Below are positions 21,074 to 23,895 of a DNA stretch of 64,000 nt, in pieces (within the stretch, counting starts at the first letter, position 1; every line of letters begins with the position of its first letter). This DNA is from Candidatus Gaiellasilicea maunaloa. GTDB taxonomy: Bacteria; Actinomycetota; Thermoleophilia; Gaiellales; Gaiellaceae. The position numbers and the translations under genes were made by a program. A model generated the notes under the pieces. The model did not search any database and had not been told where the DNA came from. It saw only the letters and a program-made list of their open reading frames with translations. The DNA lies in the NCBI GenBank assembly GCA_024330215.1, contig JANDLU010000003.1, positions 1-64,000 of the forward strand, in the 5' to 3' direction.

Positions 21074-21571
21074 GTGAGCTCGAACCTGTTCGGAAGGCAA
21101 ACCACCCGCTTCCTCACGCTCGGCGTACTCGCGCTCGTCACGGTGGTGAGTGGCTTGATCGGCTCTTCCGCCGATGCGCGCGCGGGGGAGCAGACGGCGG
21201 ACCGCACCACTCAGACGTCTGCCACTCTGACCGTCCGCAGCACCAGATTCGGCGTCATGCTCTTCGACGGCCGCGGCCGCGCCCTCTACGGCTTCACGCG
21301 CGACCGGCGGGGCGGCCCCAGCCAATGCTACGGCGCCTGCGCCCAAGCGTGGCCCGTCTATTTCGGGCAAGCGCGAGCGGGCAAGGGCGTCAAGCAGTCG
21401 CTCATCGGCACGACCCGACGGCGCGACGGCCGGCGCCAGGTCACCTACAACGGGTGGCCGCTCTACTACTACGTCGAAGATCGGAGCCCCGGCCAGGTGA
21501 CTTGCCAGAACGTCGACGAGTTCGGCGGTCTCTGGCTGGTCGTGCGGCCGAGTGGTCAGCTCGTGCGGTAG
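21074..21571 (+). CDS. COG4315-type secreted repeat protein (Lipoprotein_15-like)
   Basis: Signal peptide; LFDGRGRALYGFTRDRRGGPSQCYGACAQAWPVYF, YNGWPLYYYVEDRSPGQVTCQNVDEFGGLWLVV. Confidence 0.85.
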   Translation: MSSNLFGRQTTRFLTLGVLALVTVVSGLIGSSADARAGEQTADRTTQTSATLTVRSTRFGVMLFDGRGRALYGFTRDRRGGPSQCYGACAQAWPVYFGQARAGKGVKQSLIGTTRRRDGRRQVTYNGWPLYYYVEDRSPGQVTCQNVDEFGGLWLVVRPSGQLVR

Positions 21572-21611
21572 CCGAGCCGGCGAACACGAACGAGATCGCC
21601 CGGCAAGAAAT

Positions 21612-21641
21612 GTCTCGGGGCCCCTTGCGGGGCCCCGAGAC
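21612..21641 (-). terminator. Rho-independent terminator
   Basis: GTCTCGGGGCCCC-GCAA-GGGGCCCCGAGAC (13-bp perfect stem, minus strand) followed by ATTTCTT. Confidence 0.85.
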
Positions 21642-21762
21642 CGGTGACTAGCTTGGAGTAGTAGGGGCGTTCCGGGCCGCTCTCCTCTGGAGCGGCGGCG
21701 CGTAACGCGTAGTCCCCCACGCTGGCTAGACGATTCCCCCTGCAGGTACCGGGGACACGCCC

Positions 21763-21804
21763 CTACCGGCTAGTACCTCCACTGCCCGTACTGGAATCTG
21801 TCAC
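21763..21804 (-). CDS. Micro-ORF, 13 codons (MTDSSTGSGGTSR)
   Basis: GTG start 10 nt after an AAAGGAGG Shine-Dalgarno, TAG stop; not in the ORF track because of its length. Confidence 0.45.
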   Translation of the reverse strand: MTDSSTGSGGTSR

Positions 21805-21897
21805 TACCGGACCACCTCCTTTCCGCGGTATGCGGAGTGTAGCGACTCCGTCGGAGGACGACACCGGCCTGCCGGCGAGCCCGCGTCGCGGCGACGC

Positions 21898-22242
21898 TCA
21901 CGTCTCGACCTCGACCCTGACCCAGCCGTCCTCGACCCTGACCGGGAACGTCTCCACAGGCTCGAAGGCCGGCAGGGTCAAGGCGCTCCCGGTCGTGATG
22001 TCGAAGCGCGCGCCGTGGCGCGGGCAGATCGCGACGCACAGCTCGGGCTCCCAGTCGCCCTCGGCGAGCGGGCCGTCGTCGTGCGAGCAGCGATCCTCGA
22101 TCGCGTAGAGCTTGCCGCCGCAGTTGTAGACCCCGATCCCGACGAGACCGGCGTAGACGATCTTGACGTGGCCGGGCGGAAGCTCCGCGACCGGGCAGAC
22201 GTCTACGGTCAACGGAAGGAGAGGTCGTCGCTGCTCGACCAT
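21898..22242 (-). CDS. Rieske-type [2Fe-2S] ferredoxin (SUF-associated)
   Basis: YAIEDRCSHDDGPLAEG...CPRHGARFD Rieske motifs (CxH...CPxH); start codon uncertain (ATG 22242 or TTG 22212). Confidence 0.88.
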   Translation of the reverse strand: MVEQRRPLLPLTVDVCPVAELPPGHVKIVYAGLVGIGVYNCGGKLYAIEDRCSHDDGPLAEGDWEPELCVAICPRHGARFDITTGSALTLPAFEPVETFPVRVEDGWVRVEVET

Positions 22243-22637
22243 TCCTCGGGCAGCGGCGTCCCTTTGCCCTTGTTCAGCGCCACCTTGAGGACGCCGAGCC
22301 CGAGCAGGGCGCACTTGAGCCTGACCGGCGTGAGCGGGATCCCGATCTCCTCGAGCAGCTCCTCCTTCGGCAGCCTGGCCACCTCTGCCGCGTCGCGGCC
22401 GACGACGAGCTCCGTCAGCATCGAGGTCGCCGCCTGCGAGATCGCGCAGCCGCGGCCCTCGAAGCGGACGTCCGAGATCGTGTCGCCGTCGAAGGCCAGC
22501 GTGATCGAGATCTCGTCGCCGCAGAGCGGGTTTTGGCCCTCGGCCACCGCGTCCGGGTGCTCGAGCACACCGTGGCCCCGTGGGTTGCGGTAGTGGTCGA
22601 GAATGACCTCCCGATAGAGTTGGTCGAACTCGGACAT
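22209..22637 (-). CDS. sufU: SufU/NifU-like Fe-S assembly scaffold
   Basis: LYREVILDHYRNPRGHG, NPLCGDEISI, FEGRGCAISQAATSMLTE, R..CALL. Confidence 0.93.
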   Translation of the reverse strand: MSEFDQLYREVILDHYRNPRGHGVLEHPDAVAEGQNPLCGDEISITLAFDGDTISDVRFEGRGCAISQAATSMLTELVVGRDAAEVARLPKEELLEEIGIPLTPVRLKCALLGLGVLKVALNKGKGTPLPEEWSSSDDLSFR

Positions 22638-22650
22638 CAGGCCGCGTCGC

Positions 22651-23895
22651 TCAACCCAGGCTCTTCTTGACCTTCTCGAGCCCGGCGACCAGCCGGTCGA
22701 TCTCCTCAGGAACCGTGTAGAGGTAGAAGCTCGCGCGGTTGGTCGCGATCACGCCGAGCCGGTGCATCAGCGGCTGCGTGCAGTGGTGACCGCCCCGGAT
22801 CGCCACGCCTTCCCAGTCGAGGATCTGGCAGACGTCGTGCGGATGGATCCCGTCGACGTTGAACGAGACGATCCCGGCGCGGCGCGCAACGGGAGGCCCG
22901 TAGGTCTCGATCCAATCGAGCTCGGCGAGCCGCGTCAGCGCGTATTCGGTCAGCTCGTGCTCGTGCCGCTCGATCGCGTCGAGCCCGATCGAGCTCAGGT
23001 AGTCGATCGCGGCCCCGAAGCCGACAGCCTCGGCGATCGGCCCCGTGCCGGCCTCGAACTTGTACGGGAGCTGGCCCCAGGTCGTCTCGACCGCGGTGAC
23101 CGTGCGGATCATGTGGCCGCCCAGGTTGAACGGCGACATCTGCTCGAGCAGCTCGCGACGGCCCCAGAGAGCGCCGACGCCACTCGGGCCGCACATCTTG
23201 TGCGCCGAGATCGCGAGGAAGTCGCAGCCGAGCGCCTGCACGTCGATCGGGCGGTGCGGCGCCGCCTGCGCAGCGTCGACGACCATGATTGCGCCCTGCT
23301 CGTGCGCCCATGCGGTCAGCTTCTCGACCGGGTTGACCGTGCCGAGCGTGTTCGAGACGAGTCCGGTGGCGACGACCTTGACCTGTCCCTCCGCGGCGAT
23401 CCCAGCGAGGACTTCGAGCTGCAGCTCACCGGCTTCGTCGATCGGGATCGTGCGGAACTCGGCGCCGGTGCGGCCGGCGATGTACTGCCAGGGAACGAAG
23501 TTCGAGTGGTGCTCGAGCTCGCTGACGACGACGAGGTCGCCGGGGCCGAGGTTGTCGAGCCCCCAGGCGTAGGCGACGAGGTTGAGCGCCTCGGTGGCCT
23601 GACGGGTGAAGATCACCTCGCGCTCGGAGGGGGCGTTGACGAACTCCGCCACCTTCACCCTCGCTCCCTCGTAGGCGTCGGTCGCGCGCTCGGCGAGCCG
23701 GTAGACGCCACGGTGGACGTTCGCGTACGAGTGCGAGTAGAAGTCCGTCATCGCGTCGAGCACCTGCCGCGGCTTCTGGCTCGACGCCGCCGAGTCGAGG
23801 AAGGCGACGGGCACACCGTTCTGGAGCTCCTCCAGATAGGGGAAGTCGGCGCGCAGGCGCTCGGCGTCGAGCTTCGCGATGGCGGTGACGGCCAT
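22651..23895 (-). CDS. sufS: Cysteine desulfurase SufS
   Basis: ADFPYLEE...FLDSAASSQKPRQVLDAM, ISAHKMCGPSGVGALWGR, VAIRGGHHCTQPLM. Confidence 0.95.
   Translation of the reverse strand: MAVTAIAKLDAERLRADFPYLEELQNGVPVAFLDSAASSQKPRQVLDAMTDFYSHSYANVHRGVYRLAERATDAYEGARVKVAEFVNAPSEREVIFTRQATEALNLVAYAWGLDNLGPGDLVVVSELEHHSNFVPWQYIAGRTGAEFRTIPIDEAGELQLEVLAGIAAEGQVKVVATGLVSNTLGTVNPVEKLTAWAHEQGAIMVVDAAQAAPHRPIDVQALGCDFLAISAHKMCGPSGVGALWGRRELLEQMSPFNLGGHMIRTVTAVETTWGQLPYKFEAGTGPIAEAVGFGAAIDYLSSIGLDAIERHEHELTEYALTRLAELDWIETYGPPVARRAGIVSFNVDGIHPHDVCQILDWEGVAIRGGHHCTQPLMHRLGVIATNRASFYLYTVPEEIDRLVAGLEKVKKSLG

Follow-up and report, generated by a model that had tools for sequence, protein, structure and literature searches.

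Introduction

The closest described relative of the RNA reported here is Ms_IGR-5 (RF02471), an Rfam family labelled as an sRNA of Actinobacteria. Its transcription has been reported in S. lividans, S. avermitilis, and M. smegmatis (PMC8079986, PMC8780764, PMC10454040), and ribosome-protected reads lie on MS_IGR-5 homologues in M. abscessus and M. smegmatis (PMC4974804). Our literature searches on Ms_IGR-5 returned mentions of annotation, expression, and ribosome footprints only, and found no paper giving a function.

Other described systems combine ribosome binding or C-rich stretches with short RNAs. CC2171 (RF01867) is filed as an sRNA; at loci L206-L218 in Alphaproteobacteria (around locus position 1508), which mostly score below the Rfam cut-off, it reads as a mini-mRNA with the block GAAAGGAGGTGATCC, an NTG start at about +7 that is mostly followed by TCN, and a variable ORF of 18-35 aa, several starting with MSHCH. 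The 6C RNA (RF01066) is a stand-alone actinobacterial RNA with C-rich stretches. In Staphylococcus aureus, initiation is governed by extended Shine-Dalgarno (SD) motifs (PMC13009471), a likeness to the RNA described here at the level of SD length; the abstract of that study does not mention this RNA.

We analysed a window of 64,000 nucleotides from Candidatus Gaiellasilicea maunaloa (contig JANDLU010000003.1, positions 1 to 64,000), in which a sequence-only reading had pointed to an unannotated minus-strand transcription unit with a strong SD, a 13-codon micro-ORF, a structured body, and an intrinsic terminator, and had left its family unrecognised.

Results

The observation made in the sequence-only reading is real, and the RNA element reads as a stand-alone RNA gene: the TACACT box, the SD, the 13-codon ORF, the 10-bp stem, and the terminator are all present on the minus strand at the positions first reported (Table 1). 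The terminator stem pairs 21641-21629 with 21624-21612 around a GCAA loop and runs into ATTTCTT, as read directly on the minus strand. A terminator scan of the 500-base surroundings returned exactly one site (0.1 expected), on the minus strand, in agreement with the direction originally deduced from the terminator. The RNA folds better than 200 of 200 dinucleotide shuffles (z = -3.6), and the relatives described below support a predicted independent transcription unit with a structured body and terminator. No sigma-70 promoter around the RNA gene, TACACT included, passed a consensus scan.

Table 1. Features of the RNA gene in the window.
Feature	Position	Strand	Basis
Whole predicted transcript, ~225 nt	21605..21829	-	5' end inferred from conserved -10 box and first RF02471 model position; 3' end from terminator
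-10-like box TACACT	21836..21841	-	Read directly; TANNNT equally spaced in most relatives
16S-tail antisense / extended Shine-Dalgarno GAAAGGAGGTGGTCC	21809..21823	-	15 consecutive pairs, one G.U, with own 16S 3' end
Micro-ORF, GTG start, 13 codons (MTDSSTGSGGTSR), TAG stop	21763..21804	-	Start/stop frame kept in relatives
Internal SD-like GGAGGT, 14-15 nt upstream of stop	21775..21780	-	GAGGT invariant in alignments A1 and A2
Helix P1, 5' strand GGTACTAGC	21769..21777	-	Covariation
Helix P2, 5' strand GTAGGGGCGT, holds UAG stop	21757..21766	-	Compensated change in L011; pairing in relatives
Order-specific central domain, helices P3 and P4	21712..21755	-	Highly conserved 44-nt stretch in A1
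Helix P2, 3' strand ACGCCCCTAC	21661..21670	-	Read directly, covariation
A(A/C)TCCA linker upstream of P1 3' strand	21654..21659	-	Resembles RF02471-type AATnCC at equivalent position
Helix P1, 3' strand GCTAGT-C-ACC, one bulge	21643..21652	-	Per-locus listing, covariation
Intrinsic terminator, 13-bp stem and ATTTCTT	21605..21641	-	Terminator scan

As first observed, no protein gene follows the RNA on its own strand, the next gene downstream being a convergent Lipoprotein_15 gene (21074-21571, plus strand). On its other side the RNA gene adjoins a sufS-sufU-Rieske string (21898-23895, minus strand), and it lies downstream of these genes in the same orientation in the window's family and in parts of the order. 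The neighbours differ in Mycobacterium, Nocardioides, Micromonospora, Actinoallomurus, Zixibacteria, and others, as far as crude ORF calls can tell, and we found no shared neighbour and no conserved downstream gene across the lineages inspected. The sufSU linkage was rejected as a clue to function, being restricted to the window's order.

Over 15 nt, including one G.U pair, the 5' block GAAAGGAGGTGGTCC is complementary to the 3' tail of the genome's own 16S rRNA, which reads CTGGATCACCTCCTTTCTAGG and was located by pattern, as this 16S gave no match in the Rfam search. The near-perfect anti-SD complement noted earlier before the GTG therefore holds, and comparison with the 16S sequence takes it beyond those findings to 15 consecutive bases of the tail, spanning its single-stranded part (GGATCACCTCCTTTC) and not only the SD core. 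The predicted duplex of block and tail has an energy of -29.8 kcal/mol. A genome-wide pattern search (3.85 Mb) for GAAAGGAGGTGRTCC with up to two mismatches returned five sites with two mismatches and two perfect ones, namely the RNA gene and the site antisense to the 16S 3' end; if no more than one mismatch is allowed, the block occurs elsewhere in the genome only at the 16S gene itself.

The element is widely conserved among relatives, one of the checks first proposed for it: blastn found it in 51 of 61 related genomes, including 35 of 37 in the window's own family, nearly always as a single copy. One genome (G013) carries three matches on the short contigs C229, C131, and C292, which may be duplicates or reflect a mixed assembly. 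The alignment of relatives runs from the TANNNT box through ACCGCGGAAAGGAGGTGGTCCG, a start at variable distance, GTGGAGGT, the stop, and the 44-nt central domain to the closing strands and the terminator.

In the window, the micro-ORF extends from GTG at 21804 to TAG at 21765-21763 (minus strand). We compared it across 81 distinct loci, all retrieved with blastn or the RF02471 model; Zixibacteria contribute nine, and four lie in genomes to which a pattern scan had first led. The stop codon lies at GAGGT+14 or +15 in all 81, an offset that was noticed before counting and at loci for which GAGGT was an entry requirement; a fair test comes from comparing the frames. At 69 of the 81 loci an ATG, GTG, or TTG in frame with the stop stands 5-13 nt behind GGAGG; the other two frames give 2 and 0. 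This supports a functional SD and a real micro-ORF. Start codons are GTG or TTG at 59 loci and ATG at 10; this weak start may be unselected, as GTG and TTG are common in high-GC genomes. Twelve members have none of the three (L031, L041, L042, L046, L048, L049, L061, L063, L069, L070, L071, and L074); nine of these have an in-frame CTG at the start position, and L061, L069, and L070 would need ACG, ATC, and ATT starts, respectively. IF3 discriminates against non-canonical starts such as these, so that the RNAs that carry them might sense initiation factors. Modulo 3, every possible SD-to-GAGGT distance occurs among the 81 loci, which implies that the start shifts with indels while the frame is kept. 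The comparison thus indicates that the frame and the stop of the micro-ORF are strongly selected.

The encoded peptide behaves differently. Start, stop, and length are kept while the sequence differs completely between lineages (xxxxSTGSGGTSG versus xxxxRTREVAAR), which speaks against the small-protein gene initially suggested as one option and indicates that selection probably keeps the act of translation rather than the peptide. Members of one lineage share the C-terminal half (STGSGGTSG; RTREVAAR); the conserved codons fall on P1 and on the internal SD-like motif, and the N-terminal codons vary freely. In the window type, P1 is one base shorter and the stop frame is shifted relative to GAGGT, and the ORF is still kept.

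Covariation supports the helices around the stop codon. In A1 (35 sequences), 96.9% of cells pair, with a covariation score of 0.213 versus 0.135 in shuffled alignments, and in A2 (38 RF02471-type sequences) 84.4% pair, with a score of 0.326 versus 0.170. In both, none of 500 shuffles reached the observed score and controls with slid partners scored far lower, which answers positively the earlier call for covarying stem substitutions. P1 shows two-sided changes in 4 of 9 pairs in the window type (97.8% of cells paired) and in 5 of 9 in the RF02471 type (95% paired); in the window-type alignment 99.7% of P2 cells pair. P3/P4 cells are paired at 94.3%, and this central domain was not seen in RF02471-type members. 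The perfect 10-bp stem first reported (21661-21670 with 21757-21766) is P2, and the stop codon, which had been said to abut the structured body, is placed by these alignments inside that covarying helix; at L011, a change of the stop from UAG to UAA is matched by a C to U change on the opposite strand. GAGGT is invariant in A1 and A2 although its first two bases (GA) are unpaired, and it could be kept for P1 pairing or for another reason. Helix P1, the internal GGAGGT within the ORF, and the place of the stop codon within the 10-bp stem had been absent from the sequence-only reading. The C5/G5 runs, which that reading had put in hairpin loops, mostly form paired strands of helices in the consensus structure. 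Their supposed resemblance to 6C RNA is not supported, as RF01066 gave no match even at E<=10, its architecture differs, and the C runs of the window RNA are mostly paired.

No Rfam family was found in the element at gathering threshold, and SrbA, Pxr, and other Rfam families gave no credible score for the window RNA. RF02471 aligns full-length and colinearly with a sub-threshold 17.7 bits (E 0.046 in a 341-base search; gathering cut-off 45 bits). Given that the SD is so conserved that it could alone create false kinship, we built two models that begin after it, R1 from 38 RF02471-type sequences and R2 from 26 window-type sequences. R1 matches L152 (Miltoncostaeaceae, E 5e-5) and L070 (from the window's class, 1e-3) and does not find the window RNA itself. 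R2 matches the same two loci at 7e-6 and 2e-6, respectively, as well as eight genomes of family f5 of the window's class, to which L070 belongs, and does not reach RF02471-type loci directly; the Rfam RF02471 model scores L152 and L070 at 37 and 35 bits. Only these intermediates, the shared 5' block, and the order of parts connect the window RNA to RF02471, so the kinship is transitive. Comparison thus supports the window RNA as a divergent, order-specific subclass homologous to Ms_IGR-5 through intermediates, and its score below the Rfam cut-off makes it a sister subclass rather than a member. The family that had gone unrecognised accordingly has a described homologue, and the Rfam covariance search suggested at the outset confirms that no known family is reached at threshold.

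Both types have the 5' block AGAAAGGAGGTGGTCC, a micro-ORF whose stop lies 14-15 nt after GAGGT and inside P2, P1, the AATnCC linker, and a stand-alone gene, and the order of 5' block, P1 with an ACC-ending 3' strand, and terminator in the window RNA matches RF02471. The window RNA differs in a P1 5' strand shorter by 1 nt with a bulge opposite, in the frame of its ORF relative to GAGGT, and in its own conserved P3/P4 domain.

The likeness to CC2171 is of another kind. The window RNA scored 14.2 bits against RF01867 (gathering cut-off 75), with a good match confined to the SD block. Common to both is a short ORF directly after an almost full-length complement of the 16S tail, in CC2171 the GAAAGGAGGTGATCC block followed by an NTG start, a short variable ORF, and a terminator, which is a functional likeness and not homology. 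The CC2171 ORF is longer (18-35 aa) and starts at a near-fixed spacing of +7, and P1/P2 and the internal GAGGT-stop arrangement were not seen in it by eye. CC2171 homology was not supported, as only the 5' block matches well and the alphaproteobacterial members are laid out differently; in our analysis the two RNAs appear to work alike.

Across the phylum, the RF02471 model matched 26 of 120 genomes, 13 of them over the cut-off. The membership of two matches (L068 and L073) was not confirmed by motif; the remaining ones have an equivalent architecture, mostly with GTGAGGTGGC instead of GTGGAGGT. Among the loci listed from a pattern-based selection are Mycobacterium, Nocardioides, Micromonospora, Cellulomonas, Actinoallomurus, and others. 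In Zixibacteria, found by model and not by pattern, 12 of 40 sampled genomes matched, nine over the cut-off, and the nine inspected loci (L226-L234) each have an ORF of 11-13 codons with the stop at +15. Sequence comparison thus extends the architecture beyond Actinomycetota and suggests that the RF02471 label "Actinobacteria sRNA" is too narrow. Searches of Nitrospirota and of the phylum to which L103 belongs returned no genomes beyond the seeds.

Two further loci were left out of the counts. L147 (Truepera, Deinococcota; minus 2222-2384) has the 16S-tail block, GTGGAGGT, and a terminator and fits loosely, as its ORF would need an AUU start and a stop at +17, while L093 (Bryobacterales) fits and may be contamination. 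L078, L100, L149, L161, L177, and L183 were discarded as false pattern matches, coding or chance.

Discussion

We propose, with slightly less than an even chance of being right, that this is a stand-alone translated regulatory RNA whose structure is set by ribosome occupancy. A 30S subunit would be captured by the 15-bp helix with the 16S tail and would start at a mostly non-AUG codon; ribosomes would then translate 10-15 codons and terminate inside the fold. The ORF would be just long enough for an initiating ribosome to sit upstream of intact P1/P2, while a ribosome reaching the stop would have to melt P1 and P2, placing the internal GAGGT where it could possibly re-pair with the anti-SD. 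Modelled footprints, a static thermodynamic sketch, agree, in that an initiating ribosome leaves P1/P2 intact and a ribosome at the stop abolishes them with the terminator kept (-98.7 to -73.7 kcal/mol). This model, together with the ribosome-protected reads on Ms_IGR-5 homologues (PMC4974804), makes occupancy-dependent folding our best reading. We infer that ribosomes dwell on the RNA at start and stop, owing to an overly strong SD, a weak start, the internal SD, and the folded surroundings of the stop. The supply of free or initiation-competent ribosomes would decide between a folded body (active or stable) and an open one, and any downstream effect in trans might pass through a target or a protein partner, or might be the sequestration of ribosomes as such. 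The translation-coupled regulator suggested by the sequence-only reading thus stands as a general idea, with its SD, selected ORF, and structured body. The leader-peptide-like alternative offered alongside it, taken in the sense of attenuation, finds no support, given the lack of a downstream same-strand gene here and of a shared neighbour across the lineages inspected.

Sequestration could also be the whole story. As a ribosome sponge, the RNA would use its 16S-tail antisense to hold 30S subunits or to mask the anti-SD of idle or immature ones, with the ORF and helices only recycling it or timing release. The 15-nt complement unique in the genome, the protected reads on family members (PMC4974804), and the rarity of ATG starts (10/81) are consistent with this; however, neither the exact placing of the stop in a covarying helix nor the strong conservation of the central domain would then be needed, and we consider a sponge unlikely, if still a serious candidate.

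The strong conservation of body segments, the stand-alone gene with its promoter-like box and terminator, and the annotation of the family as an sRNA could instead reflect a dual-function base-pairing sRNA, whose body would regulate mRNAs in trans while the ORF tunes RNA stability or folding. This seems improbable to us, as the features that both types share are SD, ORF, stop, and P1/P2, while the central domain is specific to the order and did not turn up in RF02471-type members.

Chances are slimmer still that a 10-15 aa peptide is itself the product. While strong selection on frame and stop and the recurring C-terminal halves would suit a small protein, the peptides of the two lineages are unrelated and use different frames relative to the shared GAGGT, and their conserved codons overlap P1 and the internal SD-like motif, with N-terminal codons free to vary. 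We give even less credence to a guide for 16S rRNA 3'-end maturation or quality control that pairs with the tail during 30S assembly: complementarity through the single-stranded tail, beyond the SD core, would fit such a role, but it leaves the selection on start and stop unexplained, and CC2171 carries the block as an ordinary, if extreme, SD at +7 before an ORF. A cis-acting leader, attenuator, or 3' element of the sufSU operon, to which the position and orientation behind sufS-sufU-Rieske in the window's family would point, is scarcely credible against the RNA's own promoter-like box and terminator, a convergent downstream gene, and neighbours that change between lineages.

Returning to the reading in which ribosome occupancy sets the fold, Ms_IGR-5 and its sister subclass may form one ancient class (Actinomycetota and Zixibacteria; patchy in Nitrospirota, perhaps in Deinococcota) that senses or parks ribosomes: the genome-unique helix with the 16S tail would load the ribosome, termination at a helix-buried stop would be the switch, and the peptide would be irrelevant. 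We hold this broader proposal as a tentative possibility, somewhat short of an even chance.

Ms_IGR-5 is common to many Actinomycetota, including mycobacteria and streptomycetes, and the family is probably wider than its Rfam label. The comparative evidence suggests that the class is translated, that translation is selected and the peptide is not, and that the site by which it binds ribosomes is antisense to nearly the whole 16S tail. An orphan sRNA thereby becomes a concrete hypothesis, mutable at the SD, start, and stop, on how bacteria may read out or hold ribosomes.
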